In this document: piece after piece, positions 9,645 through 63,745 of the stretch | How the letters are laid out: every line of letters begins with the position of its first letter | How positions within the stretch are numbered: the stretch's first letter is position 1 | Source of the DNA: Isoetes taiwanensis | Taxonomy: Eukaryota; Streptophyta; Lycopodiopsida; Isoetales; Isoetaceae | Direction: 5' to 3' | DNA length: 64,000 nt | NCBI GenBank assembly: GCA_021234155.1 | Contig: JAJEKV010000008.1 | Location: forward strand, 12,923,406-12,987,405 | Notes under the pieces: generated by a model | Databases searched by the model: none | The model's input: only the letters and a program-made list of their open reading frames with translations | What the model was told of the DNA's origin: nothing | Made by a program: the position numbers and the translations under genes

Positions 9645-9726
9645 ATCCCACGCCTTGTCTTATTATGCTAAGAGAGATATCGGGTAGATTGCCCTCCATC
9701 CCAACGGCCTTGCGAGGGCAAAATTT

Positions 9727-23890: not shown

Positions 23891-23929
23891 ATAGTAAACC
23901 CGCGTCTTGATGGAAAACCACAATCACAC

Positions 23930-25537: not shown

Positions 25538-25563
25538 ACACCACAGCGTGCTTTTACCCGGTG
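25538..25563 (-). repeat. Right terminal inverted repeat with GGTG target duplication
   Basis: 25538-25559 is the exact reverse complement of 15627-15648; GGTG follows at 25560-25563. Confidence 0.9.
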
Positions 25564-33235: not shown

Positions 33236-33800
33236 TCGCGTTAAGCTAAGCAGGATACAAAGACATCTAGCAAAAAGCTCCAGGCCAGCCAAAGTGTGCT
33301 TAAGGTGGTGAAAAAGCCACGACACTTCTTGCAAACAAATAGACCCTAAAAGCGCCAAAGTGCATTATGAGTTTGGTAAAAGCTGGCTTTGGTTCTTGCA
33401 GAGAGAGATAGAAATGGTGGAGCAAATAGTGCATTAAGGCTTGGCATACATTTTCAAAATTAAATTTGTTGTCACAAAAGCATTCTTACATCAAGGAAGA
33501 TGTTGTAGAGTTCAAAGCTAAGGTGACCCGATTTCACCCGAGCATACATTAATGCATGGGGAGAAAGTGAGGTAACACATTACATTCATTTGTTACATGC
33601 ACATGGCCCATGGTTAGCAGTAAAAGTATGGTAGTCTTGCAATTTGGAATGGGGGATAGATTCAATCTTGTATATATTTTATACTCAATACGTATTATTC
33701 GAATGATACGGCACAAATTTGACGTATAATACGTCAAAAATCAAAAAAAAAATGGCGTCGGGAAGCGTGTCGGAAATTTTTTTAGCGTAAGCGAAAACCT
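33236..33800 (+). pseudogene. Second, partial R copy preserving the unoccupied transposon insertion site
   Basis: 33236-33306 matches 15545-15622 (GTTAAGCT-AGCAGGATACA onward) and 33307-33800 matches 25560-26050, without the 9.9-kb transposon between them. The junction reads AAGGTGGTGAAAAAGCC with a single GGTG at 33307-33310. Several one-base insertions relative to the other copy break its frame. The left boundary at 33236 is abrupt, so this copy is truncated. Confidence 0.8.
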
Positions 33801-36988: not shown

Positions 36989-37613
36989 TGATAAGATTTG
37001 GAAGATAATATACTCAAGAAACTGATAAGATTGATGTCTAGCAAGATTTTACAACTTTATGATCTTAGTGAAAAGCCAAAAAGTGGTCACTAATTTTCAC
37101 TTGATCATGTACAAGTCAATAATCATCATACAAATCAATAACATAAGCCCATAATCTCCTCCTCTCTTGTAACACCCCCTGAAATGCCTTTCAATCACAT
37201 TGCATCCTCCGGCATTTATATATATATATACTTTCCAATCACAGGTACATCCACTTGACAATTTGTGCATCCCCTTTATATAGAAAGTTCTACAACTTGC
37301 CTAAAAATCGGAGTAGATAGACTTAGCGACCTTAAATTTAGGCCCTAGTTGACTTTGACTTTGACTGGTCAACTCAAAACCTAAGTGGCGGGGGGTAGGT
37401 GGCCGATTTCTAGCGAGCCTAGCAACACCTCGGGTAGTACTGCCGCCACCTTTGACTTTGACCGCCACCTTTGACTTTGACCTCACGCCTTTGCTTCTCA
37501 TGGAAGGTCGTTATGCACATTCTAATCCGCGCCAGCGCTTCTCATAGATTAGAATGTAATATCACATGTCAAAGCTCTCCCATTTACATGACTTATATCT
37601 TTGAAACCCTTCA
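36989..37613 (-). repeat. Left LTR (3' LTR of the minus-strand copia)
   Basis: Starts TGATAAGATTTGG and ends CTTCA. It contains a TATATATATATA stretch at about 37217 and a repeated CCGCCACCTTTGACTTTGAC block. Collinear with 41845-42470 apart from clustered differences in the AGTGGCGG and CGCCACC portions. Confidence 0.9.
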
Positions 37614-41844: not shown

Positions 41845-42470
41845 TGATAAGATTTGAAGATAATATACTCAAGAAACTGATAAGATTGATGTCTAGCAAG
41901 ATTTACAACTTTATGATCTTAGTGAAAAGCCAAAAAGTGGTCACTAATTTTCACTTGATCATGTACAAGTCAATAATCATCATACAAATCAATAACATAG
42001 CGCCCATAATCTCCTCCTCTCTTGTAACACCCCTGCAAGTACGCTCAATCTGTGCATCACTCCAGCATTTATATATATATATATTTACTTTCCAATCTGG
42101 GTACATCCACTTGACAATTTGTGCATCCCCTTTATATAGAAAGTTCTACAACTTGCCTAAAAATCCGGAGTAGATAGACTTGTCGAAATTTTAAATTTCG
42201 GCCCTAGTTGACTTTGACTTTGGGGGTCAACTCAAAACCCTAAGTGGCGGGGGGGGTAGGTGGCGATTTCTAGCGAGCCTAGCAACACCGGGTAGTACAC
42301 CCCGCCACCTTTGACTTTGACCCGCCACCTTTGACTTTGACCTACTGCCACTGCTTCTCATAGGTCAGTATGCACATTCTAATCCACTGCCACTGCTTCT
42401 CATAGATTAGAATGTAATATCACATGTCAAAGCTCTCCCATTTACATGACTTATATGCTGAAACCCTTCA
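41845..42470 (-). repeat. Right LTR (5' LTR of the minus-strand copia)
   Basis: Starts TGATAAGATTTGAAG and ends CCCTTCA. The target duplication AATGG follows at 42471-42475. Confidence 0.9.
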
Positions 42471-45400
42471 AATGGAAGCAATCACCTGCGCTTTTCATGG
42501 GTAGATGGGTGCACGGTAGTGGTGTGGGCCCTCGTGAGCATGGGATTAACCTGTTGTCGATAATTTGCCACCTTGACATGTGACAGGGGCCTGCATCCCA
42601 AAGCTTGGCCATGAAGCAAGCATCAAATCTTTCGCTTCAAGGCGGTAGCGTTCCGCCGGTGTATGCCTTTGGTCCACATCTGTGTGCCTGCACATTCCAT
42701 AAGCGAGAACCACCGGGCTTGCTTGTCTTTCCAAGAGGCTTTTTGTTGCGGGCCCATCGCCACCGCCAAAGCAAGGTTGGGCAGCGGGCTTCATCCATAG
42801 CCCCCACCGCCACGGAAGTAAATAATGTGGCGTTCAGTACGACCCTCGTAATGGAAGGGAAGCACGTCTCTACGGGCAAGATCTGATATGGGGACCGTGG
42901 ATTTCCTCCCGGTGCCGGGCCAAGAAGGCCTTCCGTACACTGCTCTAGATCGTTCCAAGTGGTGAGGGATATCAACCGGCCCCACGCCACGCCCCATAGA
43001 GGAGGGCCAGAGTTCAACCAAGACCTGAACAAATTATTGCTGGTGACCCCATGCATCTGAGCTACGCCTTGTTGTTTGTTTTGTTTTGCATTGCATCTGG
43101 GGGCTTTCCAGCTGCGGTGACCCGTAAACGATGGATGCATCCGGTGTGTGGTAGTAGAAAACTCAATGCCCAAATACTTATAAGATCGAGCCACCTCCAC
43201 TACGCCCTGGTAAGTGAATGAGGGAAGGCGTGGTGCTTGGGATGATGGGACCAGCAGCACCCTTGTCTTGACCAAGTTAACTCTCATGTCGATGAAATTG
43301 GCGAGAAAGTGTCCAGCATCCAGGTGCGCCTCCCCGTGCTCAGCTAGCCATTCTTCTAGCTGGTCAATGTATACCAAAGCGAAGAGCGTCGGTGATAGAG
43401 GGCAGCCACGGCGCACCCAATGCTACCAAATAAACGGGCTCCCCGGCAAAGGTGTGTGAGGCGACGGAGCAAGCCTCCTTATGAATGCCCATATAGCGTG
43501 CGCAGTCGGTGGGGGGTCCCTAGTCTGTCTCAATCTATCCCACAACTTATCCCGAGGCTTTGTGTCAAAAGCCTGCGAAATCCACAAAGCAACAAAGAGC
43601 ATTCTCGGCCGATTCCTAGGCTATCCTCTATGAGTGTTCGTAGAGTGAAGATATGGTCAATAGTAGAATGCCGGGGCGGAAGCCCACTTTAGCGAGAAAC
43701 CGCACTTCTCCATCCCCGCTTAAAGTGTCAATCACGCTCAAGAATCCCGGCAAGCAACTTGGCAAAGACGAGCCCGACCATAATGGTGCGATAGTTGGCT
43801 GGGCCGTAGGGGTCCCTCGCTTTGTATATGGGCACAACTCTACTAGTAGTCAAAGGCGGGAAGCCTTCTTACAATGCCCCCTGGTGAAGAGTCTTTGTGA
43901 GCCCGACCACCATTGGGGGCCCGACCACTTGAGAAGCTGCACGCATACCATCCAAATCTGCTGCCTTCGGTGGCAAGTTGTGCCCATTATGACATCCCTT
44001 TGATGAATGACCAGTGCTAGGCAGGCCTGCTCATGAGGAGAATGCGGGTGCCGGCTTCCCATTGGGTCATACAGTGCGCAAAGTATCTCACCCATTGTTC
44101 CGGGGTAATATTTCACGTGGGAACATGCGGGCTTACTCAAGACCTTTCTCGAAGGCCCTAGGGTGGCGGTCTAGAAGACCAAACATCTGTTGCTGGTGCT
44201 TTCTGCAAAGGTACAGCTTTCTTGGTCTTGAGGAAGGATGGTATTGACGGGCCGGCCTGTTGGCGAATGGTGGGGTCCAGCACTTGGCGGAGCCATCGTT
44301 TCAACTCCGACATTAGATCATCGAACCCGGTGATTGCGAGGGAAGGTGATTGCAGCCCCACGGGTGGATCGTCGAGGCGGCCTCTCCCAAAGCATCGTCC
44401 CCTACCCTCGAAGGGCTGGTTCATTTGGCCGTCTGCTGTTGAAGTGTGGGGGTTTACGGCTCTCCCGCAGCTCATGCTCAAGCATCCTCGCATAGGCCGC
44501 ATCGATCATAGGTCGGGGCACGCAAGTGTAATTTACATGGGGTGTGGGGCAATGGGTGCTGGGTTAACTGCCAATCTATAAACGGGGGGAACTGATGGTG
44601 AGATCTACTTCCTCGGGAGCCACTGTCCCGACATCAAAAACAGTGATCAAAGTGTAGGCATTGCTCAACAAGTAGCACGTAATCCACCACTTGGTGCAGC
44701 CCCCAGTTCTCCCCGGGTTTACAAGTGAAGCCGGTTGGAGGGCCGACCAGCGTGCCAGCCCATTGCAAATGACGGGTCAAAGATCTTTGCCGACAGCGAC
44801 TGATCTGCCAGGCCATAGTGTAACTTTGCTACGTCATCGGCGCCCTTGGCCAAAACCAGTCTCTGCGGGGGTCCATTTGCAACACATCCTCGGCTAGAGG
44901 TGCGAATTTTGGGATCTGCTCTATCCACAATCTTGGCGCATTGAAGTCTCAAGCAACATGACCTTGCCCAATTGTATGCATCTGGCCAGTATGTCATCAT
45001 ATAGATCGACATAGGGCTCCTGCTTTTATCCACATCCAAGTGCGTGTGGTAAAAGTTGCTCTCGGCATGTGGGAAACAGCAAGCCGCCACAAAGAGAGGG
45101 CTGCCATCGCTGATACGCATCGTACCCGCAAGTATCTGTTGTGCTGTCGCCTTACCGCAATGGGGAGGCCGATTGGGCAAAGGCTGCATGCGGTAGTAAC
45201 ACGCAATTCCTCCGTGTCCCTCGTTTCGGTGCACTCATTGAAGGCCGAATGGCTGGGGTATCACGGCAAATCGGTAGCTTTGTGACCGACATGTTCCCAT
45301 GTTTCCATGAGGAAGATAAGGTCCATGTCCATGGCGAATTTTAATTGAGACTGTCCCCTTCGCCATGGAAAGCCCCGCGGCAATTCCGGGGATACCCCGA
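42471..45400 (-). pseudogene. LINE copy 3: reverse transcriptase and endonuclease, right of the copia insertion
   Basis: Minus-strand L1-like LINE. From the 5' side: DLIFLMETWEH-like text near 45310, then EGHGGIACYYRM (45234 on), CCFPHAESNFYHTHLDVDKS and DPSFAMGWHAG (endonuclease), the last in block 45234-44719. The spacer ELKRWLRQVLDP lies in 44502-44158. Reverse transcriptase follows with AQPTIAPLW, AKVGFRPG and TISSLYEHS (43837-43628), then RRGCPLSPTLFALVYIDQLEEW (43416 on), LANFIDMRVNLVKTRVLLV and SYKYLGIEF (43416-42637). The motif order is right and this copy is longer and better kept than the one at 10364, but frameshifts remain. The 3' end lies at 36498 beyond the copia element. Confidence 0.85.
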
Positions 45401-46749: not shown

Positions 46750-47219
46750 GCCTTCAAACAAGGTTTAAAATGAAAGCACTTATTTAAGAAGTGCGTTTGA
46801 AAGATTCCTTTATAAAAATTGGAAACTTGAAAAAAATGGACAAAATAGGGAGCAAAATAGATTGTTGAGCAAATAGCATTCAAAATACCCCAAAAAAAGC
46901 AACATTTTTGAAGCCTTTTCATTTTTAAAAAAGGGCAAAAAAAAAAAAAGCTTGTTTTGAGGAGAGAGACATTAAATTTAAAACTCACTAAGTATTTGTT
47001 GTTGAAAATAGAAGGAAATATAGTTTGTCTTTTTGCAAGCTTAATATAAGTACTAAGAAAATCAAACATAGAAAAGAGAAAAGTGTGAAATCATAAAAAA
47101 AAAAAGAATTGTTCTAATTAAGCATTGTTAAAGAGACAAAGTTTTAGGTTGAAAAAATCTTCATCAAAATATATTGAGATTCTTAGCACATAGATTACAA
47201 TGAAAGTTAATTTAAAATC

Positions 47220-48310
47220 TTTATGCGTATAAATTTATACGGGAGGTGGGTCTTCCAGTCCACCGGACTCTCGTTCCCTTAGGATCGTCTATTCTTTGCG
47301 AGGTTTTAATGGCGTAGACGCCCCTTACGATTCCAATGGTACAAATACAGCTGATTCTCCTCGCTCGGGCACCACGGGCTCGGATCGACAAACTCCACCT
47401 CCTCATATCTTCTTCCGTAAGTGGAGGTGGATTTACAGTATATGTGCCTTTCACATCGCCAGCCCCATTTTTGCTCCCGGTTCCTCGTTTTCATCGGAAA
47501 GGATTCACAAGAGCTTATCCCGGTCCCTGATGAAACTTATTTTGTCCCGGGTCTATGTCAACGGAGACAACATTGCGCCCTTGCTTAAAAGTATGGCAAA
47601 CCGGCGGGTGCTCGAGCACGAAAATGCATCTAGAATCGGTCTCACGGGCGAGAAAACCAATTAAATTATTAATTAGCCGTTGTAGCCCGATAATGAGATA
47701 CCACGGCTCCTTGTCGTTGTGGGTCTCTCAATTTTGTAGAAACAGTAGGGCGAAGGCGTTGCGGGGTGGAGTCTTTTCATTCTGCGTGTTGAAATGAACC
47801 ATGGTTTTTGGTGTCCGCTATTTGTAAAACCAATATGGAAATGTTCAAAACTGACTTACTAAGCGGCGGACCACCACCATGTCCTTTGACATTTGTTTTT
47901 AGCTGCCAAACAAAAAGCAATTAAACATTGGAAAGAAAAGCGAACAAAATAAGTTAGTTAAGTGGTGTGGCGGTATAAATTTATACCACCATTGCCTTCT
48001 TTGTATAAATTTATACCACGAGGTTTAATCGAGGTATAAATTTATACCGTGGTGTTAAAGTAAATAGAAAAGCAAGAAATTCAAAGCTTACCATAGCGTT
48101 TTGAAGCCAGCGTTCTGAGGCGACTCCCAATGGCTTTAGCACAGACATCGATGGAGGTGGGAATGAAAAATGATGACCCTCCGGTTTTCAGATGTCGTGA
48201 CTTCTTTTAGGCCATCCAAGAAAGAACGGACTTGCACGTGAGTAAAAGCCTCCTCGTCAAAAGTGCTATCCTTGATTTTGAAGCCATAAGGAATATGCGC
48301 AATGCATAGC
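47220..48310 (-). pseudogene. E2 methyltransferase C-terminal part (separated from its N-terminal part by E1)
   Basis: Minus-strand text begins at the E1 insertion with HIPYGFKIKDSTFDEEAFTH (about 48290-48230), then VQVRSFLDGLKEVTTSEN and RRVIIFHS. HIPYG corresponds to methyltransferase motif IV (DPPY type), with the first Asp changed to His; the E1 copy keeps Asp. An intron with palindromes (about 48060-47950) follows a TATGGTAAGC donor. Next come a KGHGGG block and ADTKNHGSF. Near 47640 ILDAFS marks motif I, whose GSGTT is degraded to CSST here, then GRN(V)V-VDID-like text. The C-terminal stretch 47494-47306 reads STYGRRYEEVEFVDPSPW. E1 separates this part from its upstream exons, so the gene is dead. 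Confidence 0.65.
47222..48055. repeat. Palindrome copies in the E2 3' introns
   Basis: GTATAAATTTATAC cores at about 47226, 47972-47987 (perfect 16-mer GGTATAAATTTATACC), 48003 and 48033-48048 (perfect). They mirror the E1 copies at 56415 and 55520-55690. Confidence 0.85.
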
Positions 48311-48316
48311 GTAAAG

Positions 48317-48345
48317 CTTCAAAAGGAATCTTTGAAAGATTCCCT
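48317..48345 (+). repeat. E1 left terminal palindromic block
   Basis: CTTCAAAAGGAATC leads into the odd palindrome GGAATCTTTGAAAGATTCC. The same block lies about 45-70 bp inside the E2 right end. Confidence 0.7.
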
Positions 48346-48699
48346 AAAATTCCCTTAAAAAGTCCATTTTAAGATTTTTTGTGGCGGTGTGACAATTTAA
48401 GTAATTTAGGTACCATTTTTGAGGGTTGATTGAACATAACTTTTCGTGCAAAAATTTTAAATAGCAATTTTTCATCCTCTAAACTAGAACAAAAATAGTT
48501 ACTTTTATAAAGTGTAGCAAAAAGGGGCAATAAAAAAATAGCAAAGGGTAGTAGAGTGACAAAAAAGTGATATATTCAAGGTTGTGAAAATTGTACAAAA
48601 TTATGAACAAAATTGTCAAAAATATAGGATATTTTGACGGACAATCATCACACTGCACTTTCTGTTCTTTACATGTTGAGTCATCGGACAAACTTACAT

Positions 48700-51600
48700 T
48701 TTTGACAAGATCGGGATGCATCTCATCCTCGACTCATTTATTCCACGATCACTCGAGCCTTCATCCTCGGCTTCACTCGGCCTTTGGATGTACTCGAGCG
48801 ATCTTCTTCCTCACTTGTCTACAAGTGAGTCTTCATCATCATCTTTTTGGCCACCTTTTTGGCTTGTTTGTCTAATCCACATGCCGAGCCTTATTAAAGT
48901 TTGAGTGACCATCGTAACTTATTAGCGGCGGTCGAGAACAAAGTCATATGCAAGAACCTTTACTTCGGTTAGATCTATGGCGGCGATTGCTTGCTTTGGA
49001 CTTAGCTCTCTTTCCCCTCTGTTTTTACCATCTCCAAAGTATAACTCCCCTTTGAAAGCATTGGCGTGATCGTTCTCATCCAGTGCACTTTTAATTGAGT
49101 GGGAATTCCATCCTCTCTTGTTACCTCGGTTACTTTAGCTAGCGGAATGGCCTCGATTCATCATTATCGGTTTGGGACAGCTATGAGCATTCCTTACGAA
49201 TCTCGAGGGTGAACCGGATACTCGAGCAACTTGTTGTCTTTGTGCGTCTAGGGCGGTGTACATGACTCTGTCATCTTCATCGAGCTAGCCAATATCTCTA
49301 CATGTTCCTCTTGATTCTCAAACCCGGGGAGGGTTTGCCTAGATGGCGGTTGAATGTAACTGGTCTTCGACCTTGTAATGAAGCTTGCAACATGTCACGT
49401 TGCCGAGAAAAAAATTGAGGCCACCATAAAGCATCTGCCTCCCCAAAGTGGTTAGAGCAGGACTGAATACTTGTCTCAATACAATCCAATGATTTATTTG
49501 AGTCAAATGCTCTTCCCTCCTTTTTACTCTTTGTGATTTCTTTCAAGCTTTTTAGAGGCATTTGCTCTGCAGAGAGCATGGAACTAGTATTGGGGATGTT
49601 GCGAATGAATTGAATACCTGCTGCTGGCTGCCACTGCAAGGATGTGGCATATTTCTTTCCTTGTAAGATGGCCTTGCCATCTACAAGTGAAATTTTGATC
49701 TGATGCTGGAATGTAATGTTTCTCAAGGGCTCAATAGCACAGTGACCTAGTTGATCTCTTCGAAAAATCCATTCCTTGAAATCATAAGTTTCTTCCAATA
49801 ACTCGATGTCTGGACGAGGATTGTAGGAATCTTGGATGACCTCAATCATGGCTGGCAGGCTTAGAGCTTTTTCGAGCAAGGCGTTTAGAGAACCTCTTGA
49901 ACATCGATCAATTTGGTCGTGTGTATGACCAACAAGCGAGGAAACCAATCTTCACCTTCTTGAAGATTTGTTTCTCTACTAACATAACACGATAAGCAAA
50001 CAACGCTGATTCTTATTTTCCCTTGTCGTGTTATCTGGTGAAGATCTGACCCGGCGGTATATGTTCTAGATTGGAAAGAAGCTTATTCAATATTGTGATA
50101 GTGAGATTTGGATCAGCATGAATGTTTGGATAATTCAAAAATGCCTTGCAAGATAGTTTTCCATTAAATACCATAGCACCAACAACATGCAGATGTATGA
50201 AATCTTCTTGGCTGACATCCTTAGGCACATTGACAAAATGTGGTAGGGTGGTCTTCTTACGGTCCATTCCATCAATAACAAGCGATATGTAGTTGAGTGG
50301 TTGTTCGAGTGCTTTCTTCCTATGTTTTGTCAATTTTCTCCTTTCCAAAGATTGTTGTTCTCACGTGCTTGTTGGTTTCTCCTTCAATGCATCGAAAGGA
50401 AAATATGTTTAGGAAAGAACCTACTTTTAAGTAGAACTAGGCAAGAACTGCGTCACGGAAGCTTACTTTTAGTGTGAAGTGTCCTTGCATTTTGTCTCTG
50501 AGCTTTTAATTGAGCATGTAGCACAAAGCAGACATCCTATGCTTTCTAGGAATGGACCTTGAGAAAACTCTTTTTCGAACCACGATAAAGTAAGAGTAGC
50601 GGAACAAAGCGTTCTCCGGCCTCAACACACATCTCCTTATAATTATCGTAGACTTCTTGTTTAGGTGAAATTGTCACTCAAGTGGTACATAGGGCTATTA
50701 GGGAGTTTCTCACAAGACTCCTTAAAGAAACCTTCCATCCGGGGAAACACATTGAAGGGCATGAATTACGGTTATGCCTCTGAATGGCGGTAGTCATTGA
50801 TGCACGGATTCTTGTCAAGCCTTTTCTTGAGGCGGTCAAGTCGTCTGTTGCCTAAAGCATGAATCAATTTGAAGGCCGTTTGACGAGGCGGTGTGGCCAC
50901 CCATTTGTGTAAGTAAACTTCTCACCATCATCGGCCTAATATTGAAGGCTAAGTAGCCCCTTTGGTCTAGCGAGTCATTGAACTGTAACTATCACGAATC
51001 AACCTCAATTCCTTTAGTCAATCTTAAGCAAACAGCGTTGAGAACAACGATTGCTTTGTATGTGTTGCCCATAAGTGAGCCTCGTCCATGAGTTTCTTTC
51101 TTCTCTTGGTTGTACATGCTTTCTTGTGTAAGTTACGTTTAAGATTCTTACTTGCGGGGGGCTTTGAATTGAACAAGGAGTCTTGTGGCTTTGGTAGGTC
51201 CTCGTCGAGAGATCAACATGAGGTGTTTCTTAAATCGAGAGATCAACTTGAGGTGTACTTGTAGATCTTTGATAGGTTTGGTGTGTGCAAGTCACGGGGG
51301 GAGGTGCTTTCCCTCTCTGCGGGGAAAAATGTCGAGGTTGGTGGCGTAGTTGACCAGCTCTGAAGTGTCGTAGAACCACGGGGAGTTGCGTGTCATTGGC
51401 TACTTCCACTTGTTGTAGTATCATTTAGCGAAATTGATGGAGTTGGCGTGATTTGCCTCGGGGGATTTAGCCTACGGTGGACTAAAGGCGACGTACTAAA
51501 AACTGAAGTGGAGGAGGTAGTCGACCTCTCTAGCTTTGAGGTGGGGTAAAAAGCGCATTGGTGGGGGCGGGGCGGCGTTCGGGGGCGGGGTGTGGTGGAG

Positions 51601-51744
51601 TAAGTTGGCTGGTGGTGGAAGCCGAGGTGGTGCGTCTTTGGAGTAAACTCTCAGAGCTGGGGGTTTGAATATCAAAGCCGAGAATTTCGAGGCTACTTCG
51701 GTGTCGGTTGAGGGGGTGTGAATGTCATTGCGGGGAGGAAGCAC
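48700..51744 (-). pseudogene. E1 transposase (VIDGMD / DNTTRENKN / VGHTHDQID family), frameshifted
   Basis: Likely DDE-type transposase of E1, by inference from motifs. The first frame (51744-51496) starts MLPPRNDIHTPSTD and is proline-rich (LLHHTPPPNAAPPPPMRF). After less clear exons, 50348-50031 reads QPLNYISLVIDGMDRKKTTL, PHFVNVP, HLHVVGAMVFNGK and DPNLTITILNKLLS; the DGMD is a candidate catalytic Asp. Near 50015, in another frame, DNTTRENKNQRCLLIVLC gives the second Asp. Block 49948-49298 reads VGHTHDQIDR, SLPAMIEVIQDSYNPRPDIE and ADALWWPQFFSRQRDM. These motifs recall a widespread, poorly characterised group of transposon proteins (DUF7869-like). The gene probably ends near 48700 in an acidic tail (DDDEDSLVDK). 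One-base shifts imply inactivity of this copy. Confidence 0.65.
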
Positions 51745-51814
51745 TGCGAGCGGGGACTTGGAGGCTCTGCGGTTCTTTTTTCTCGAGCCATACTCGAGAA
51801 AGGTAAGCGTCTGC

Positions 51815-51980
51815 TTGTATAAATTTATCTGACGACAGAAGAAGCAGATGGTAAAAGTTTACACGGGGATGGTATAAATTTATCTGAGAGAAGGCAAACT
51901 TGTAGCTGCTGGCTGTATAAATTTATCTGAGAGATGGTATAAATTTATCACGGAGGAGGAAGACCACGGCACAAATTTAT
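51815..51980. repeat. Palindrome cluster, E1 (transposase-proximal)
   Basis: Five copies of the TATAAATTTAT core at about 51816, 51871, 51917, 51938 and 51965, several ending in TCTG or TCAC instead of TACC. E2 has the matching cluster at 60082-60260. Confidence 0.85.
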
Positions 51981-52250
51981 CACGAAAACTCCTGAGACAC
52001 TTGTATTGGAATCTTTATGGAGAAGCGCTATCTGAAAGCGGCACTTAGCGGGGTACTTAAGCCCGGCGCCGGCCACCCTATTTTCATATCGCTTGGCTTC
52101 GGTCGAATTTCGCTCATGGTCCATATATATACCCCCTCTTATTTGCTCTCGGAACCTCTATACGCTAGTCCATACGGTCATGCCCACGTAAGTCTACTTT
52201 CCGTACTTTTGTTTCTCTTTGGTTTTAATCTGTTAGAGTGTAAGCCCCCA

Positions 52251-52612
52251 CGGTATAAATTTATACCGAGATGGCTCTGGATCGGTATAAATTTATATCA
52301 TTTAATAGTATAAATTTATACGGCTCCAAAGCACTCGCGGTATTACCCCCGCCAAATTTGCTTTCAGGCCGGTATAAATTTATCTGCTTCGGCTGCGTAA
52401 GTATAAATTTATTCGACTTTCGACACGGCGGTATAAATTTATACCGCTCAGAACACATTCGATTGTTCGGGCGGTATAAATTTATACGCTTCGTGCTTTC
52501 GGCGGTATAAATTTATCGCCCGTCTTTCGGCGGTATAAATTTATCTCGCTCGAGCACTAGCGGTATAAATTTATACAAGTGCTTTCGAGCCGTATAAATT
52601 TATACCGTTCGA
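52251..52612. repeat. Palindrome cluster, E1 (methyltransferase-proximal), including a 20-bp perfect palindrome
   Basis: Twelve copies at 22-60 bp spacing. The best are CGGTATAAATTTATACCG at 52251-52268 and GCGGTATAAATTTATACCGC at 52428-52447. Others keep the left arm and vary at the right end. Spacers share TTCG, CTCGAGCAC and TTTCGGCGG words. E2 has the matching cluster at 59490-59825. Confidence 0.9.
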
Positions 52613-52799
52613 GAACCATTTTAAATTCTTGGCGTCTAGTGCTCAGCGAATGGTCGAACCTTAATATTTTGGTAATATTGTTGTGTTTTCAGCTTAAATG
52701 ACACAAATGAAGTGTTAATTTAGTGTGGATTTTATGCCCTTTCATCCTCTTTTTTCTTTGTTTTTGTGTTTCAAAAATTGAAAAAGATTGAGTTTCTTT

Positions 52800-55700
52800 T
52801 GTAAAAATGGTTTTTAGCATTACGGTGGCCCTAAGATCAAGTTTGTACTCGGAGGGTCATCATCAAAGGGTGCACCACGAGCCCGCAGACTTATGAACTA
52901 AAGGATCGGACTTGAGTGCGTCCACGGCGCAAGAGAAAGCAAACCCAGCGAGGCGTACCTTTACTTGTGCAAACAATCGGGGAAGGGCAAGTTCAAGTCA
53001 GATGATTATTACCCTATTGGCGAAATTATAAGCCTTGTTGCTCTGAGAGCGATGATGAAGTTCTAATGCGGTGCAACCATGACAAGGGTCCGTCCACTAT
53101 GTTACGAATACTAGAATGCTTAGAATTAGCATGTGCAAGCCTAAAGGCGTACCACGATTACATTGCGGACAATTACAAGGCGGCCCGTAAGTTATTCTTA
53201 CATGCTTTCCGTATAAATTTATCTGAGTCATTCTCTTAACTTAACTGCATTACGGGGCGTAGTAGAAATTTTGATGTCGGTAGTCTTTGTTGTGCGACGA
53301 AAAAGTGTTGGTCAAGGGTCTATGGTACCCCGTACTATCGAAGAGGAAGTAGTAGAGGAAGAGGAAGAGGAAGAGGAGAGGAAGAGGAGGAACCGGTCGT
53401 CACAAAGGGAAAGGGTAGGAAGTATTCACGGTAGAAGATACGACCTCCTACCAAAAAAGTCTAGAATCACAAAGTCCTTGACTATAGAGGAGTCGTGAAG
53501 CTCTTGAAGGCTCGGGGGGGCGGATATCGTTGTGAAGCCCATGAGATAAGTCGAGTGCTATTCTCAAAGCGGGTTAATGAAACCAAAGCTGCTCAAGCGA
53601 GACCATTTCTTTGACACTAAGCACTATTAAGAGGCCACCAAAAAATGAAGATGGGGTCGAGTGCTTCAGGTCGAAAAGTTTGTCTGCGGCACATGTGGCT
53701 ATCCTTAAGCAAAGAATGAGAAGGAATCCTCATGCCCATGTGTTGCCACTAGTTGTGATGGTGGGCCAGTCGGTGCAACCAATTAAAAGACTACAAAAAG
53801 CTGATTTTGAAGATTACACCTATTATGTTCTTGGAGGCACACATAGCTATAAAGCAAGAAAAGAACTTTCAAAAAAGAAAAGCCGTAATGAAGTGCGGAA
53901 GGCGTGGAAGCACATATCTATGTGGGGGTGAGACGAAGAGGCAAAAGTCATTCTAAAGTGAGTCACAATCTCGACAATGACTTAGGACTAAAGATGAGCC
54001 TAATAGACAAGATTAAGCTTCATGCCAGAAAGTGCGTGGATTTCAAACAAGTGCATGGAGGCGACTTCAAAAAACAAAGAACAAGCTTCAAGAGCTTGAG
54101 AAGCACTGTGTGTGATCTTTGCCTCGGTTATATGATTCGGATAAAGAAACCCATTATGGCTGTCAAACAATACGATAACTACTTTCAGCTAGCTTTGAGA
54201 GATGGTCAAGTAAGTAAAAGCTTCAATTCAATCTTTTGTAGTATGTTTAAGCGTGGTTAGAAGCTTGTAATAGCGGTATAAATTTAGTGCGGGGCGGTAT
54301 AAATTTATCACTGGTGCGGTGTGAGTATAAATTTATCACCGTGGGTATAAATTTATACAGTGACCGGCCGCGGTATAAATTTTCTCTGGCGCGGTATAAA
54401 TTTATCTGCGGTATAGGATGCGGTATAAATTTATCTGCTTGACCCGGCCGCGGTATAAATTTATCTGTTGATCGTCATGCCGTGCCCATCCTCTTCGCCA
54501 TTCAACACTAAACCGTTTGAACATTTCTGGTGTGGGATCTTCAAGAGAATTTTTTTGTATGTTGAAGATGGGGAGCTCAAAAGAACAAGCTAGGGGCCTT
54601 GAGGAAAGAAACCAAAGAAAGGTGGTGAATCAAAACAAAAAAATATGAGCATTGTACCACGGGCCTTGATTCTGGGGTCTTAAAGCTAAAAAAGAAATAT
54701 TTGTTAGCTTTGTTGGAAAAAGTAGTTGCCAAAAGAATTCACATTAGGCGAGATGGCCAAGGAAGCTAAAGCGTAAGCCTCACTTGCTATGCCAAGTTTT
54801 TTCTACCTTTTTTTGTCTTACAATACTTTTCCCTCTGCGATCGAGGAAAGACATTGTCACTTGCCGGGCCGAGTTAATGAAGCAGCTCAACCTAGAAGGC
54901 TGGGAGGAGTGCAAACTTTTGTACCCAAGTTGCACCACAGGCGGTATCATCGAGAAACCTTGATTAACCCGGTTAATTTGGGTAAGTTTTGCAAACAATA
55001 TGTTATGTGTTTGTGCCTTTGTCTTACATTACTCTTCTGAGAACAAGAAAAAGGGGCTACCAATTTGGATTTTTAAAACTGGTTCGTAGGGCCAAAGAAA
55101 GAGGCAAAGGCTTAAGGCAATTGAGCAGGGTAGAGAGGTCGCCACTTCCGGTTTTATTTGTACATATGAGAGATTTACCACATTTGGTCGGGGCGTCCGG
55201 TCTGAGGGGTTGTTGAGGGTGATTGTACAAGGTGGGGACTCTTTTAGACAAGCAAAATTTTACATTATGCATTGCGAGATATTCCTTATGGATTTAAAAT
55301 AAAGGATAAGCGCTTTTGATGAGGAGGCTTTCACTCACGTGCAAGTCCGGTCTTTCTGGATGGCCTAAAAAAAGTCCGCGACATCGGCGGAGGGTCATCA
55401 TTTTTCATTCCGACCTTGAGGCGATGTCGGTGCTTAAACCTATGGGGGCGATGCATGTAGCGCCCGGCCCAGCTGCGTTTGGTAAGCTTCACAATTGCGC
55501 TTTTTTGTTTTACGGTAACTCCTTTGTATAAATTTATACCACATCATCTTAAGGTTTAAATTTTAAAAGTTTGGAATTTCTTAGTGGTATAAATTTATCT
55601 GACAAGGCAATGTCGTTTCAAATTTATCTGACTTTGCCGTAAATGGTATAAATTTATCTGACAAGGCAACCGTCGTATAAGTTTATCCGCCACACTCTAG

Positions 55701-56330
55701 GGACTAACTTATTTTCCTTGTTTTCTTTTTACTAATTTCTAATTCTTTGTTTTGCTTGGCGGGCTTAAAACAAGCGTCAAAGGGTCATGGTGGTGGTCGC
55801 GCTTAGTGAGTTGTTTGAGCATTTTCATATAGGTTTTCTGGTAGCGGACACCAAAAACCATGATTCATTTTAAACACCTTGAGAATGAGAAGACTCCTCC
55901 CCGCAATGCATTTCGGTTCCGGTGTTCTGCGAAATTAAAGAGACCCACGGCGACAAAGTTTGTGGTGTCAATATCCCCAGCGGCTTATTAATAATTTAGT
56001 GCGGTGGTTTTCATACGCCACAGGCGGATCTTAGATGCCTTTTACGGATCGGGCACCACGGCGGTTTTCGCCCTTAAAGCGGGGCCGCAATGTCGTCTCG
56101 GTCGACATAGACCCGGATAAAGTAAGTTTCATCGGGACCGGGATAAGCTCTTGTGAATCCTTTCGATGAAAATGAAGCTGGGAGCAAAAAGCGGTGCTAA
56201 GCGATGCTAAGGGCACTTACCGCAATCCAGCCTCCACTTACGGGGAAGAAGAGATGAGGAGGTGGGTTTGTCGACTTAGAACTGTGGTGCAGAGCTGAAA
56301 GCGGCTGTACGTGCCATTGGAATCGAAGCG
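52800..56330 (+). CDS. ParB-like domain plus DNA amino-methyltransferase gene of E1, multi-exon, frameshifted
   Basis: Predicted to methylate adenine-N6 or cytosine-N4 in DNA, by family. An early exon reads KSDDYYP, SDDEVLMRCNHDKGPSTML and LELACASLKAYHDYIADNYK, then a GTAAGT donor near 53190. A Glu-rich acidic linker follows (EEEVVEEEEEEEERKRR, about 53340-53400). Block 53611-53931 contains PHAHVLPLVVMV and YYVLGGTHSYKARKELSKK, the ParB/sulfiredoxin-fold GG-H-R/S motif. Block 53904-54206 has HNLDNDLGLKMSLIDKIKLH, then a GTAAGT donor at 54207. About 54900 reads RAELMKQLNLEGWEECKLLY. At 55280-55310 the frame reads RDIPYGFKIKDK (motif IV, DxPY), then FDEEAFTHVQVRSFL. After a palindrome-filled intron, 56030-56115 reads ILDAFYGSGTTAVFALKAG then NVVSVDIDPDK (motif I, F-GSGTT and acidic loop), followed by a GTAAGT donor. 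Order IV then I is that of bacterial beta-class enzymes. Start and exon edges are approximate. Confidence 0.7.
53205..53225. repeat. Single palindrome in the first intron, E1
   Basis: CGTATAAATTTATCTG right after the GTAAGT donor near 53190; E2 has TGGTATAAATTTATCATT at the matching place (58863). Confidence 0.8.
54270..54472. repeat. Palindrome cluster in the intron after the ParB domain, E1
   Basis: Eight or nine copies (about 54272, 54296, 54323, 54345, 54371, 54392, 54420, 54449), mostly CGGTATAAATTTATC. Matches E2 57565-57785. Confidence 0.85.
55522..55692. repeat. Palindrome cluster in the intron between methyltransferase motifs IV and I, E1
   Basis: Four or five copies (about 55527, 55588, 55617, 55645, 55674) after a TTTGGTAAGC donor at about 55480. 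A single further copy lies at about 56416 near the gene end. Matches E2 47960-48055 and 47226. Confidence 0.85.
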
Positions 56331-56861
56331 GCGTCTCTGCTATCATACCCTCACAAGAGTCGGATCCTAAAAAGTGCGAGAGTCACGTGGTGGGAAGAAC
56401 CACCTCCTCCACCGGTTGTATAAATTTATCTGAGTCAAGATTACAAACTAACTTTCATTGTAAACTATGTGCTAAGAAATATAACATATTTTGATGATGA
56501 TTTTTAATCTGAAAGCTTTGTCTCTTCAACAGTGCTTAATTAGAGCAACTCTTTCTTGCTCCATGATTTCACACTCTTTGTCTTCCCTATGTTTAATTTT
56601 CTTAGTACTTATATTAAGCTTGCAAAAGACAAACTATATTTCCTTCTATTTTCAGCAATAAATACTTATTGACTTTTTAAATTTAATGTCACCCTCCTCA
56701 AAACAAGCTTTTTTTTTTTTTTTTTTTTTTGCCCTCTTTAAAAAATGAAAAGGCTTCAAAAATGTTAACTTTTTGGGGGTATTTGAATGCTAATTGCTTA
56801 ACAATCTATTTTGCTCCCTATTTTTTGTCATTTTTTTTTCAAGTTTCCAATTTTATAAAGG

Positions 56862-56911
56862 AATCTTTCAAAGCGCACTTCTTAAATAAGTCGCGTTTCA
56901 TTTCTAAACTC
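56862..56911 (+). repeat. E1 right terminal inverted-repeat block
   Basis: GGAATCTTTCAAAGCGCACT followed by TTAAATAAGTCGCGTTTCA and TTTCTAAAC. It matches the E2 left end (46750-46810) in reverse complement and, more loosely, the E2 right end (63660-63731). Confidence 0.7.
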
Positions 56912-57564
56912 TTGTTAATTGCTTTAGGTCTGCCTCTCCTCCTTGCCCCTCTGAACCGGGTTTTAAAATCTGTTGGTAGGCCTTTCTTCTTTCTGCAAAG
57001 AAAAGCGTGAGACAAAAGGCGAAAACAAAAAGTATTTTTACGTACAACTTACCCGACCGAAGTTAACGGCGTGCTCTCGATAATAGTATCGTAGTAGAGG
57101 TTGGATATAAAGCCTTGCACTCCTCCGGTCCTCGAGGTTAAAGTTGCTTCATTAATTACACTTTGGCGGTGACAATGTCTTTACATTGCGGAGGGGAAAA
57201 ATGTGATCGAGACAAAATTAAAAAAAAAGAACGACATAAAAAAGTGTGGCTTCGTCTTAGCTTCTTTGGCCATTTAAATTAGAGTAAATTCTTTGGCCAC
57301 AACTTTTTCTAGAAGTCTTACAAAAATTTCTTTGCTTTTCAAACCACTGTAGGCTGCGTCCGGGGAACAATGCTCATGTTTTTGTTTTGCCTCACCACCT
57401 TTTTTGGTTTTCGTGAGCTAGATTGTTCTTCAGCTCACCATCTTGAACATACAAAATATTCTTTCTTGAAGATCCCACACTGTTGGCGATCGAACACAAG
57501 TATTTTAGTTTTGAATGGCGAACAAAGCGTTGGTTACTCTGTCTACTATATTATTGCACGCGGA

Positions 57565-57785
57565 ATACCGATACGGTATAAATTTATCAAAGTGACCGGC
57601 CACCGGTATAAATTTATCACAGATGCCAGTGGCTTAACATGGCTATGACTTTATCTGGAGTGCACGGCAGCGGTATAAATTTATCACGAATCACCCGGGC
57701 TACCGGTATAAATTTATCGCAAATCTTGTGTCTGATCACGGTATAAATTTATCTTGTGACCGGGCGGTATAAATTATCTGTGTGT
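57565..57785. repeat. Palindrome cluster in the E2 intron after the ParB domain
   Basis: Six copies (about 57574, 57606, 57671, 57705, 57739, 57766). Same intron as E1 54270-54472. Confidence 0.85.
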
Positions 57786-58859
57786 GGTCTTCCTTGATGC
57801 GCATTTACAAAGTTCGATGTTAATATACAAGCTTCGGCTATGCTAAGAATACTCTGAACAACTAAATTAAAGCTTTTACTTTGACCATCTCATCGAGAAA
57901 GCAAAATTTGGAAGTAATTGTCGTCTTGCTTCCACGACCATTATGGGCTTCTTATCGAATAATTAGGCTGAGGTGACACTCGTGACACAAGCTTACCGAA
58001 GTTCTTGGAGCTTGTTCTTTTGTTTTGAAGTCCTCCCCATGCACTTGCTTGAACTCTCACGTATTCGGTGCATAGGCGGATCTTGTCTATAAGACTCATT
58101 TTTAGTGCGAAGTCATTGTCGAGATTATGACTCGCGGCAATGGCGTTTGCTTCCTCGTCTGTGACTCCAGCGTAGATATGTGCTTCTATGCTCTTCCAAA
58201 CCGTTGCGGGATTCTTCTTTTGAGAGTTCCTTCCTTGCTTTGTAACTATGTGTGCCTCCAAGTACAAAATATGTGTAATCCTCAAAGTTAGCCTTTTTAT
58301 AATCTTTTAGTTGGTTTGCTGACTCCTGTCAACCATTACAACAAGTGGCGACACATGGGCATGAGGATTCCTTCTCATTCTTTGCTTGAGTATAGCCACA
58401 TGTGCGTCGTCTGACTTTCATTACTGAAGAACTCGACCCCATCTTCATTTTAGGTGACCTCTTAATAGTGCTCAATGTCAAAGGAAATTGTGTGCTGGCG
58501 GTTTAGTGTCATTAACCTTTTTTTAGAATAGCACTTGACTTGTCCCACGAGGCTTCACAACAATATCTGCACTTTTCGGAGCCGCGAAGAGCTTCTGGCG
58601 ACTCCTCTATAGTCGATGCCTTTGTGGTTCTAGTCTTTTTTTTTGGTGGGAGGCGTGTATCTACTACGGGAATGCTTCCTACCCTTTCCCTTTGGTATTA
58701 CTATTTCCTCCTCTTCCTCTTCTTCTTCTACTTCATCAACATTTTCTTCCTCTTGATAGTAGTGGGGTACCCGGACCTTTGACCAACACCTTTTCGCCAA
58801 AGCACCATACGACATCAAAATGTCCACTATATCATGTCGAGGGGGTTTAGTTAGGAGGA

Positions 58860-58882
58860 TAATGGTATAAATTTATCATTAA
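58860..58882. repeat. Single palindrome in the E2 first intron
   Basis: AATGGTATAAATTTATCATT, at the position matching E1 53205-53225. Confidence 0.8.
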
Positions 58883-59489
58883 AGCCACTAAGAATAACTT
58901 ACATAGCCGCCCTTGTAATTTTCAGATATGTACTCATTCCGTCTTTGGGCTTGCACATGCTTAATCTAAGCATGTTACTACTGAAGCGTAGAAGACTTCC
59001 CATTGTCATGCATGCACTTCATTAAAAGTTCATTTTAGTTTTTACTGTAGCAACCGGGTTTATTATTGGCCCCGGCGGGATAATAATCATCGGCCTTGTA
59101 CTTGCCCTTCACTGAATGATGGTTCATGAATACAGATGCAGCCTCAGTTGGTTTGCTCTCTTGCCCCAATGGGCATTACCCGCGTCAGTCTTTCTGGATT
59201 CGATGCGTCTATGGCCGGGGAGGTGCGACTGTGAATTGACTGAAGATTGGCCTTTGTGCACAAACTTTATCAGCAGGGCGTGCGTTAAAAACTATTTTTT
59301 TGTAAGCGAACATTTTGACTTTTTGACACACAAAAGCAGTAAAAGCGAGGCTAAAAGGGCATAAAATCCACAATTAATTAACACTTTTGTTTGTCTTATT
59401 TAAGCTTAAAACACAACAATATTACTAAAATATTAAGGTTAGGGTCCATTCTTTTTTGGCACTAGACACAAGATTAGAAACAATTTTGA

Positions 59490-59825
59490 AACAATATAAT
59501 AAATTTATCGCCCAGAGCTCGGCGGTATAAATTAAGACCGAGATGGCTAACGGGTGGGGTATAAATTTATCGCTCGTTCTTTCCGGCGGTATAAATTTAT
59601 CTGGGTTCGAACACATTACGGTATAAATTTACCCTTAAATTGTTCTTGAGCGGTATAAATTTATCTGCTTCGTCTTTCAGCGGTATAAGTTATCCGCCCT
59701 AAAAACTGCGGTATAAATTTATCTGGATTGTATTGATGCAGGTATAATTACTCTTGCTTCAAACTGCGGCGTATAAATTTATCGCAGAGCGAGCCATCTC
59801 GGTCTTAATTTATCTGCTTTCGAGC
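59490..59825. repeat. Palindrome cluster, E2 (methyltransferase-proximal)
   Basis: About eleven copies, spaced 25-40 bp, mostly with one intact arm. The order of spacer words (TTCG, CTTTCAGCGG) matches the E1 cluster at 52251-52612 in reverse. Confidence 0.85.
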
Positions 59826-60079
59826 ACTACCACTCTATGATTAAAAAAAAAGAAACTAAAGCGATGCAGTAGACTTATGTGGCCATGACCGTATGGACTG
59901 GCGTATGAACATTAAGGCAAATAAGAAGAAATTATATAAGGCGGTCCTTGGCGCCGCCCTCCGATGTGCGTATATGGAAAATAGGGTGTGGCGGTAGAAC
60001 TTAAGTACCCTTTAACTAAGTCTTGGATTTTAGTATAACGCGTTTCTCCATAAAGTTTCCAATACAAGTAATGCGTGAG

Positions 60080-60262
60080 TTTTTGGTATAAATTTATCTA
60101 CGTTTACGTTCTATGTTGCCCTCCTCGCGTATAAATTTATACCATCTCCCGATATAAATTTATCTTGTCTAGCGTAAAGGTTTCCCTTTCTGTATAAATT
60201 TATACCATCTACGTATAAATTTATACCGTCTAGAACTTACGTGGTATAAATTTATGCGATTA
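60080..60262. repeat. Palindrome cluster, E2 (transposase-proximal)
   Basis: Six copies (about 60086, 60129, 60150, 60191, 60214, 60243), several as GTATAAATTTATACC. Matches E1 51815-51980. Confidence 0.85.
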
Positions 60263-60299
60263 TTGGCCTAACTTTTACGAGTTTGGCTCGAGAGAAAAA

Positions 60300-63200
60300 G
60301 AGCGGCCGAGCCTCAACTCACATTCGCGAGGCTCCCACACGCAATGAGTTTACACCTCCTCCATGGACACCAGAGTAGTCATGAATATTCACAGCTCAGA
60401 CATTCCGGCTTTTTATTTCTGTTGAGCTTACTCGCCTTTGACCACCTCGGCTTCCACCACCAGTTCAATTTACTCCACCACACCTGCTCACGACGTCGTT
60501 TGCCCCCACCAATGCGTTTTACTCCACCCACGGGCTAGAGAGCTCGGACTACCTCCTCCGGTTAATTTTGATGCGTTAAGCCCATAGTCGCGTGTAGGCT
60601 CCCTCCCGGGAGGCAAATTCGCCAACTCCATCCATTTAAGCTAAATGGTACTACAACAAGTGGGGGCAGTCGGCGACCACTTATCTCTGTGTTCTCACGA
60701 CGCCGAGGAGCTGGTCAACTTCGTCACCAACCTCGATTACTTTTCCGGAGAGGAAAAGCACCTCCCAGGGACTTTTTTTTTGCCCACATCAAACCTCTCG
60801 GCACATCTACAAGTACACCTCATGTTGATCTCTCAGACGAAGAAACACCTCATGTTGATGTCTCGAGACGAGGAGACCTCCCAAAACCACAAGACTCCAT
60901 GTTAATTCAAAGCCCACCGCAAGTAAGAATCTTAAAAGCGTAATTTACACAAGAAAGCATGTACAGCCGTTAGAAAGAAAAAAACTCATGGGCCGAGGGC
61001 TCACTTTGCGGGCAACACATACAAAGCATTGATGTTCTCGCGTTGTTTTGCTTAAGATTGGACTAAAGGAATTGAGGTTGATTAGGTGATAATTCTGGTT
61101 CAATGACTACTGCTAGACCAAAGGGGCTACTTAGCCTTCAATATTAGGCACGATTGTAGTGAGAAGTTTTACTTACATTTGGTAGCCCGCTAGTACGTCA
61201 AGCGGCCTTCAATTGATTCATGCTTTGGGCGTGACGACTTGACCCTTTGAAGAAAAGGCGACAAGAATCGGGCATTGTACTCTTGCCATTAGGGGTATAT
61301 CGAATTCATGCCCTTCAATGTGTTTCTTGGATGGAAGGTTTCTTTTAAGAGTCTTCGCGAAACTCCCCTACTTGCCCCATGTACCACTTAGTGACAATTT
61401 CCCCCGAAACAAGAAGTCGATAATTATAAGGAGATGTGTGTTGGCTGGAGAGCGCTTTGTGCCGCTACTCTTACTTTCTTGTACTCACGGAAAAAAAGAG
61501 TTCTCAGCGTGTCCATTCTAGAAACACTTAGGATGTACGTTTGTGCTACATACTTTTGAATTAAAAGCTTCCGAGACAAAATGCAGGACACTTCACACTA
61601 AAAAGTAAGCTTCAGGACGTGTTCTTGCCTATGGTTCTAACTAAAAGTAAGTTCTTTTCCTAAGCATATTTTCATTTAGGATGCATTGAAGGGGCGAACA
61701 AACCTGAGAGAACAACAATCTTTGGAAAGGAAAATTGACAAAACATAGGAAAACCTTTGGAACAACCACTCAACTACATATCCGGTTGTTTATTGATGGA
61801 ATGGACCCAGAAGAAGACCACCTACCACATTTTGTCAATGTGTAATACAGGATCTTCTTGAAAGAAGATTTGCTATGTTGTTTAATGGAATGGAATCTTT
61901 ACCAAGCATTTTTGAATTATCAAACATTCATGCTGATCCAAATCTCACTATCACAATATTGAATAACTTCTTTCCAATCTAGAACATATACCACGGTTAC
62001 GTATCTTGACTAGACAACCGACAAGGGAAAATAAGAATGGGCGTTGTTTGCTTCTTTGTGCTATGCTAGTAGAAACAAAATCTTCAGAAGGTGAAGATTG
62101 GTTTCACCTTGTTGGTCATACCACCGATCAAATTGATCAGATGTTGATTAGGTTCTCTAAGCGTCTTGCTTTCGAAAAACCGACTCTACCTAACACAATG
62201 ATTGAGGTTATCCAGATTCCTACAATCCTGAATCCGGTGTCGAGTTATTGGAAGAAACTTTGATTTCAAAGAATGGATTTTTTGGAGATCAACTAGGTCA
62301 CTTGTGCTGTGAGCCCTTGAAACATTACATTTGGCATCGAGATCAAAATTTCCTTGTAGATGCAAGGCCATCTTACAGAAAAAATATGCCACATCCTTTA
62401 GCGATTGGCGGCCCGGTAGTGTTATTCAATTCATTAAGCACCATCCCCAATACTAGTTCCATGCTCTGCCGAATAAATGCCTCTAAAAGCTTGAAAAGAA
62501 ATCACAAAAGTAAAAGGAGGAAAAGGCATTTGACTCAAACAAATCATTGGATTATATTGGAGACAAGTATTCAGTCTGCTCTAACCACTTTGGGGGCGAT
62601 GCTTTATGGTGGCCTCAATTTTTCGACAGCGTGACATGTTGCAAGCTTCTGAGGTAGAAGACCCGGTTACATTCAAGCTGGCCATCTAGGCAAATACTGT
62701 GCAAGTTGAGAGAATCCAAGAGGAACATGTAGAGATATTGGTAGCTCGGATGAAATGCCGATCATATTAGCCTGCGGCCCCAGACAGCCTGACACAACAA
62801 GTTGCTTCAGTATCTGGTTCGGTCTCGAGGGGTTGAGAAAGGAATGCTCATAAATTTCCCGTGATAATGATGAATCTGGGAGGCCATTTGGCTAATAAAA
62901 TGCTTGGAGGTAACAGAAGGATGGAATTCCACTCAATTAAAAGTGCCTTTGGATGAGGAAATTGCGCCGTACTTGGGTGGGAGTTATACTTTGGAGATGG
63001 TAAGCAGTGGGAAAAGGAGCTAAGTCAAAGCAAAGCTGCTAGCATCATAGATCTAGAAGTAAAGGTTCTTGCATATGACTTTGTTACGGCTTTGCTAATA
63101 AGTTCGATTATGGTCCTCAAACTTTAATAAAGGTCGGCATGTGGATTAGACAAACAAGCCAAAAGGTGGCCAAAAGATGATGATGAAGACTCACTTGTAG

Positions 63201-63350
63201 GCGGTGAGGGAAGAAGATGGTTTGAGTACATCTAGTTTTGAAGAGGATGAAGGCTGAAGTGATCGGGGAATAAATGAGTCGAGGAGGATGAGATGCATCG
63301 ATCTTCTTTACCAAAATGTAAGTTTATCAGATGACTCGAACATGTAAAAA
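60300..63350 (+). pseudogene. E2 transposase, second copy of the VGHTHDQID family
   Basis: Counterpart of the E1 transposase on the opposite strand. The N-terminal region near 60341-60540 is again rich in Pro/His/Thr. Block 60645-60905 reads EELVNFVTNLDYFSGEEKH. Near 61790 the frame reads IDGMDPEED then HLPHFVNV. Block 62006-62263 reads PTRENKNGRCLLLCAMLVET and HLVGHTTDQIDQMLIRFSKR, keeping the RENKN and VGHT-DQID motifs in one frame, unlike E1. Block 62248-62634 reads KNGFFGDQLGHLCCEPLKHY and later CRINASKSLKRNHKSKRRK. Several one-base shifts remain. The intact parts of the two copies complement each other, which helps define the family's true protein by alignment. Confidence 0.65.
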
Positions 63351-63654
63351 CGAAAGTCGCGGTGATGATTATGCAGTCAAAATGTCCTATATTTTTTGAC
63401 AATTTTGTTCATAATTTTGTACAATTTTCACAACCTTGAATATATCGCCTTCTTTGTCACTCTACTACCCTTGCTATTTTTTTGTGCCCTTTTTGCTACA
63501 CACACATAAGTAACTATTTTTTGTTCTAAAAATGGGAGGGATAAAATTGCTATTTGAAATTTTTTACTTGCGGAAGTTATGTTGATCAACCCCTCAAAAA
63601 GGTACCTAAATTAACTAAATTGTCACACCTCTTAAAATGGACTTTTAAGGGAAT

Positions 63655-63745
63655 TTTAGGGAATCTTTCAAAGATTCCTTTTTGAAGTCTTGCGTTCCGA
63701 CAAATAAGTCGTTTCATTTTAAACTTTGTTTTCACAAAACAATTG
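63655..63745 (-). repeat. E2 right terminal inverted-repeat region
   Basis: Contains GGAATCTTTCAAAGATTCC (63660-63678) and AAATAAGTCGTTTCATTTTA (63702 on). Inverted relative to the E2 left end at 46755-46811. Confidence 0.7.

Follow-up and report, generated by a model that had tools for sequence, protein, structure and literature searches.

Two nested copies of a DNA transposon

We analysed a window of 64,000 nucleotides (64 kb) from contig JAJEKV010000008.1 of Isoetes taiwanensis (assembly GCA_021234155.1, positions 12,923,406 to 12,987,405, forward strand), a repeat-rich and eukaryotic-looking stretch in which no open frame exceeds 276 codons and the longest is of low complexity. Comparison of the window with itself by BLAST identified one DNA transposon family in two nested copies at 46.76–63.73 kb, here called E1 and E2. 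The element, about 8.6 kb long, is a eukaryotic cut-and-paste DNA transposon; it has a DUF7869 transposase gene and a divergent accessory gene whose product joins a probable ParB/sulfiredoxin (Srx)-like region to a predicted DNA amino-methyltransferase; the same gene pair is present in both copies. Both copies also hold arrays of a short palindrome-like site, which we propose as candidate places for the ParB-methyltransferase to bind, to methylate, or both. The copies and their genes are as follows, in window positions:

46757–63730 (−, reverse orientation): E2, outer copy, interrupted by E1; from window self-BLAST, end anchors by eye, and flanks
48317–56916 (+): E1, inner copy, within the E2 methyltransferase gene, just upstream of the E2 IPYG motif
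48317–52100 (−): E1 gene for the transposase, DUF7869 (PF25273), boundaries approximate
52800–56400 (+): E1 gene for the putative ParB-like and methyltransferase protein, limits approximate, several introns
53617–54210 (+): E1 probable ParB/Srx-like region (VLPLVVMV..GGTHSYKAR..SHNLDND), frames 53581–53931 and 53892–54260
55248–55457 (+): E1 predicted methyltransferase, motif IV exon (DIPYG...VIIFHS), frame reading
55845–56166 (+): E1 predicted methyltransferase, motif X/I region (RLINNL...ILDAFYGSGTT...VDID), PF01555 on raw frame 55995–56117
57865–58520 (−): E2 probable ParB/Srx-like region, from frames and self-BLAST
46900–48318 (−): E2 predicted methyltransferase, 3' part (IPYGFKIKD...ILDAF...VVSVDIDP), and right end; from self-BLAST and frames

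In the self-comparison, E1 pairs in inverted orientation with sequence to its right over 48317–52297 (with 63687–59772), 52657–54228 (with 59440–57865) and 54530–55122 (with 57480–56917), and its last part, 55259–56916, has its inverted partner at 48315–46757 and none adjoining 56917. Because the pairing is split in this way, E2 runs from 63730 down to 56917 and then from 48315 down to 46757, with E1 inserted between. The two copies are 74% identical over 8075 aligned bases, as near-perfect runs interrupted by clumps of disagreement. The outer ends of E2 share a common terminus, AACAARGTTTAAAATG (anchor picked by eye), with TTCA flanking it on either side; this 4-bp flank is seen in E2 only, the left end of E1 having been lost. 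The right end of E1 has a terminus of the same kind, and at its left junction, where the terminus is absent, 136 E1 bases have no E2 partner. A 4-bp target site duplication is typical of the Sola1 superfamily. By eye, the termini at 46757–46810 and 56865–56916 also contain an inner inverted repeat, about CGCACTTATTTAAGAAGTGCG, and the transposase-side end of the element bears GGAATCTTTGAAAGATTCC.

That the divergent neighbour of the accessory gene is a transposase, as the first-pass annotation of this DNA had held, is borne out by minus-strand matches to PF25273 (DUF7869) in two E1 frames, 49301–49951 (E = 8.9e-10, 38.9 bits, cut-off 26) and 50031–50360 (E = 7.7e-6, 26.1 bits, the same cut-off). 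No relative of the transposase was found among the viral contigs searched, nor the term DUF7869 in the literature searched (PMC).

The accessory gene

The accessory gene contains four GTAAG splice donors in E1 (53187, 54210, 54982 and 55482). Three of the four are identical in E2, and that at 54210 reads otherwise there, so that the introns of GTAAGT type described earlier hold for three donors and differ between the copies at the fourth. Since three donors recur in place, the gene looks eukaryotic and intron-bearing rather than a bacterial contaminant; its earlier description as part of a eukaryotic transposon, present in two copies, agrees with self-BLAST and with the alignment of E1 and E2. 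A GAAGAG tandem repeat at 53340–53388 would give an acidic stretch in the protein.

On its motifs and profile matches, the C-terminal part of the protein is a predicted beta-class N6-adenine or N4-cytosine methyltransferase. DIPYG (frame 55248–55316) precedes ILDAFYGSGTT (frame 55995–56117), and we take the two to be motif IV and motif I, in the order already noted at first pass; VDID is present as well, in a different frame (56035–56166). The beta-class assignment, for which a PF01555 (N6_N4_Mtase) search had been suggested, is upheld by a mosaic of the two copies, which matches that family at E = 4.1e-7 (30.6 bits, cut-off 26.7). Among raw frames one of six matched (55995–56117, E = 0.0026, below cut-off), and the raw E2 frame carrying IPYG matched Leu_zip at E = 0.0056, near the value of the raw PF01555 match. 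Phage DNA-methyltransferase families in PHROGs match the methyltransferase mosaic (best E = 4.4e-7). In phages, 260 records match it at E values no higher than 1, none of them reaching 60% identity; among the 25 listed of these 260 the annotation is mostly methyltransferase, and in two of the 260 that were examined PF01555 is present and no ParB family is found at E up to 0.01. In PDB the mosaic finds the beta-class enzymes MboIIA (E = 0.033) and RsrI (0.13) weakly, with chance rows such as camelid antibodies in the same range. We infer the DNA binding, enzyme activity, target base and purpose of the accessory protein.

The N-terminal part is probably a ParB/Srx-like region. The block VLPLVVMV...VLGGTHSYKARKEL, on which this identity was first suggested, does lie in one open frame (53581–53931, +). 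Two profiles, phrog_723 and phrog_8071, both annotated 'ParB-like partition protein', match the same stretch weakly (E 0.07–0.13) in the E2 read-through and in mosaics; the earlier ParB-like label stands on these, and the accompanying search for PF02195 returned no row. Profiles do no more than suggest the identity, though the architecture equals that of the published ParB-methyltransferase transposon gene (PMC12477816).

Arrays of a palindrome-like site

Across the 17 kb that the elements occupy there are 47 exact copies of an 11-mer core, TATAAATTTAT, and four that carry a single mismatch, where 0 and 0.4 are expected; the rest of the window has no exact copy, and positions 1–46756 have none with one mismatch either. 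The bases that flank it suggest an 18-bp palindrome-like consensus, CGGTATAAATTTATACCG, present at 28 places with three mismatches or fewer (0.04 expected). Counted by its 10-mer core, the site occurs 26 times in E1 and 22 times in E2, i.e. 22–26 times per copy, with exact cores placed as follows:

51800–52640 (unstranded): 15 exact ATAAATTTAT cores between the E1 genes and on the transposase side
54290–54470 (unstranded): E1 intron array, 6 exact cores
53213; 55528–55658 (3); 56420 (unstranded): further E1 exact cores
57570–60260 (unstranded; 57.57–57.76 kb, 58867 and 59.5–60.26 kb): E2 array counterparts, 18 exact cores
47229–48046 (unstranded): E2 tail counterparts, 4 exact cores

Among neighbour distances below 80 bp, 16 of 36 are 28–33 bp; the spacers between sites vary and the core is exact, and isolated sites stand at matching positions in the two copies. 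All 26 E1 cores fall in classes modelled as non-coding (intergenic, transposase-side flank, after three splice donors, and 3' flank), a placement that is a model and not a test, since we drew both the site classes and the gene limits.

For every E1 core (26 in all) an exact core lies in E2 no more than 60 alignment columns away, which holds for 18% of random places. Two of the 26 have no aligned partner; of the 24 alignable cores 16 are exact in E2, compared with 6 of 33 other AT-only 10-mers (Fisher p = 0.0003) and 259 of 1236 AT-rich 10-mers, figures whose weight for our interpretation is lessened in that clustered sites are not independent and a site in an array can pair with the best of several in the alignment. 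As the sites are kept in place, and better than comparable sequence, they are probably older than the split of E1 and E2. The paired site was found in no viral and no prokaryote genome contig. No comparable site array in such transposons was found among the papers listed in the literature searched (PMC, a search outside which most subscription papers lie); the candidate target sites look new, the transposon class being already published.

Strand-specific bias in the sequence

The plus strand of the window carries more GCG than CGC (587 against 323), an excess found in E1 (118/33), in the inverted E2 (81/31), in the E2 tail (20/6) and at 16001–46756 (225/121), but not at 1–16000 (130/121). Across the window CGG likewise exceeds CCG (620 against 411) and CTG exceeds CAG (586 against 431), and the excess of CGG over its complement is present in E1, in the inverted E2 and at 16001–46756, not at 1–16000. 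Substitutions between E1 and E2 that would mean plus-strand C-to-T (or A-to-G) changes number 628, against 403 of the opposite kind, the erring copy being indistinguishable in each case. Two inverted copies would not be expected to evolve the same plus-strand bias, and so part of their disagreement is probably due to strand-specific base calling. We infer that unpolished long reads were miscalled with a strand bias, perhaps where cytosines are modified. Frameshifts were therefore rejected as evidence for pseudogenes, as some of the damage resembles read error specific to one strand; those flagged in the first-pass annotation are likewise likely to be read error in part.

The sites themselves show a similar asymmetry on the plus strand, where the 5' GT is kept in 46 of 48 and the 3' AC in 15 of 48, in both inverted copies. 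This presumably reflects miscalling, and because the bias is also present outside the elements we do not use it as evidence of methylation by the element's enzyme.

A transposon that may mark its own DNA

A ParB-like region lies beside a methyltransferase in an element with about two dozen non-coding sites, and the protein may therefore bind and methylate there. We propose that the ParB-like part would bind the palindrome-like site CGGTATAAATTTATACCG, present 22–26 times per copy in non-coding parts, and that through this binding the methyltransferase would reach the transposon and mark the DNA of the transposon itself. Such a mark would most likely shield or label regulatory and intronic DNA, in anti-silencing or self-recognition, or would otherwise regulate the two divergent promoters; of these roles we consider anti-silencing or self-recognition the most likely and autoregulation the next, and the direction of the mark's effect is a guess. 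With sites both in introns and between the promoters, the arrays look more like a coverage of the element than like a single operator. We put the probability of this explanation as a whole, a transposon with a ParB-like methyltransferase acting on its own site arrays, at roughly 0.5. Only tentatively do we suggest that it is a domesticated bacterial partition-like site system, in which a ParB-like protein on the sites of its own arrays would deliver an N6-methyladenine (6mA) or N4-methylcytosine (4mC) methyltransferase, a sequence-based self-labelling rather than one that draws on host silencing pathways.

Several observations weigh against this explanation. The palindrome is complete (18 bp) in only two copies, reaches 16 bp in four and its inner 14 bp in 15, the remaining sites being presumably miscalled palindromes; and the comparison involves two copies only, both of them error-ridden. 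For the ParB-like part, a 159-amino acid mosaic gave no PF02195 (ParBc) row at E up to 10, and there was no NCBIfam match; the sole PHROG row for the raw E1 frame was phrog_18269 (E = 0.065), which is unannotated for function, with no ParB row; PDB matches to the ParB mosaic were at chance level (best E = 0.47); and its predicted structure, at a predicted local distance difference test score (pLDDT) of 43.6, was unusable for fold comparison. Pfam rows for query P0001 are weak and bear other names (best IgA0_D2 at 0.013 and DUF6551 at 0.036), and the ParB mosaic has no tblastn match in phages. The ParB boxes are GERR and ENxxR; by eye, the place of the former reads GTHS and that of the latter HNLDN, in E1 and E2 alike, and the nucleotide binding, or the nuclease activity, of the ParB-like part may have been lost. 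In addition, the ParB part of a bacterial ParB-methylase is described, in the available text, as a non-specific nicking nuclease, which calls for caution over site-specific binding (PMC5512222).

Possible too, if doubtful, is that the arrays bind the transposase or a factor of the host, or are plain regulatory or TATA-like repeats, and that the methyltransferase is independent of them and acts elsewhere or non-specifically. The divergent genes do have the densest arrays between them, where promoters are to be expected, the core looks TATA-box-like by eye, and some transposons, e.g. En/Spm, are known to have arrays of short motifs near their ends to which the transposase binds. However, the sites are not subterminal, as there are none in the roughly 480 bp at the E1 right end and none at 48.3–51.8 kb, and they also follow three splice donors of the accessory gene, where neither a promoter nor a transposase would need them.

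We consider it unlikely that the arrays are functionless minisatellite-like expansions, conserved through youth or through fewer miscalls in AT-rich strings. The spacing of about 30 bp and the arrays reported by Tandem Repeats Finder (TRF) would fit such expansions, as would the error-ridden sequence with its strand-specific bias; yet the core is exact while the spacers differ, isolated sites recur in place in both copies, and cores are retained exactly more often than other AT-only 10-mers. Finally, the first-pass annotation had set the gene within inverted-repeat ends, and 46757–48018 is indeed an inverted copy of 55644–56916, but the two arms (46.8–48.3 and 55.3–56.9 kb) are ends of different nested copies, and a single element at 46757–56916 with terminal inverted repeats of 1.3–1.5 kb is highly improbable given that the transposase-side end at 63.69–63.73 kb has the terminus immediately and lacks an arm of this kind, that 46757–48315 supplies the 3' part absent from E2, and that the ends at 46757 and 63730 share the TTCA flank.

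Relation to known systems

A protein of 1104 amino acids with a ParB-like region and an N4-cytosine/N6-adenine methyltransferase, encoded opposite a transposase, has been reported in the Ectocarpus transposon Sola1-1_Ec32 (Dinatale et al. 2025; PMC12477816). In the available part of that paper such proteins are proposed to bind and modify their own transposon, so that self-marking has already been suggested, and relatives in transposons of green and red algae are cited (Iyer, Abhiman, Aravind 2011; Petroll et al. 2025). Compared by description, Sola1-1_Ec32 has the same ParB-methyltransferase/transposase architecture and the same proposed role as the present element, but measures 21.5 kb against about 8.6 kb here, and repeat arrays go unmentioned in the part of its description available (PMC12477816). 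Within the PMC search described above, no further account of a ParB-methyltransferase transposon gene was found. Our element is a further member of this reported class.

Bacterial replicon arrays (parS, iterons) resemble those described here in that a short site is repeated many times at even intervals, and bacterial ParB proteins use palindromic parS sites. The iterons of P1 start every 30–41 bp in incA and every 21–22 bp in incC, a spacing similar to that found here, but they bind RepA, not ParB, and the array here belongs to a eukaryotic transposon, spread over its introns and the DNA between its genes. The 4mC methyltransferase of bdelloid rotifers is reportedly a host gene and not transposon-borne. 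Like the enzyme predicted here it is described as a bacterial-type amino-methyltransferase in a eukaryote, and the term ParB is absent from the main text of the paper (PMC8885841). Bce_0392 of Bacillus cereus, a prokaryotic protein, is described as joining a ParB domain to an adenine methylase (PMC5512222).

Self-marking has been proposed for transposons that bring an amino-methyltransferase with them, and a candidate target is now defined, at about two dozen sites per copy including introns, which makes the purpose testable by binding, methylation and comparison. If the proposal is correct, it would represent sequence-directed 6mA or 4mC in a eukaryote with a mobile-element source, and a role for a ParB-like domain outside partitioning.

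Other features of the window

Rfam and tRNA scans of the window gave no match, and eight other window frames gave nothing in Pfam at E values of 0.01 or below. A match to a viral contig (L001) was rejected as a chance stretch in a 296-amino acid frame that lies among phage-like frames and looks by eye like a phage peptidase. Two minus-strand frames, 1479–2063 and 42640–43422, have by eye the look of reverse transcriptases of long interspersed nuclear elements (LINEs), with no Pfam row at the limits used. CCA/GGT-rich low-complexity arrays at 17931–18348 and 23900–24480 are partly inverted to each other. Direct repeats at 36989–37613 and 41845–42470, about 4.86 kb apart and 90% identical over 640 columns, are reminiscent of long terminal repeats, and a second direct pair lies at 25560–26018 and 33307–33764 (about 7.75 kb apart, 88% identical); both pairs show runs and clumps of disagreement like those between E1 and E2.

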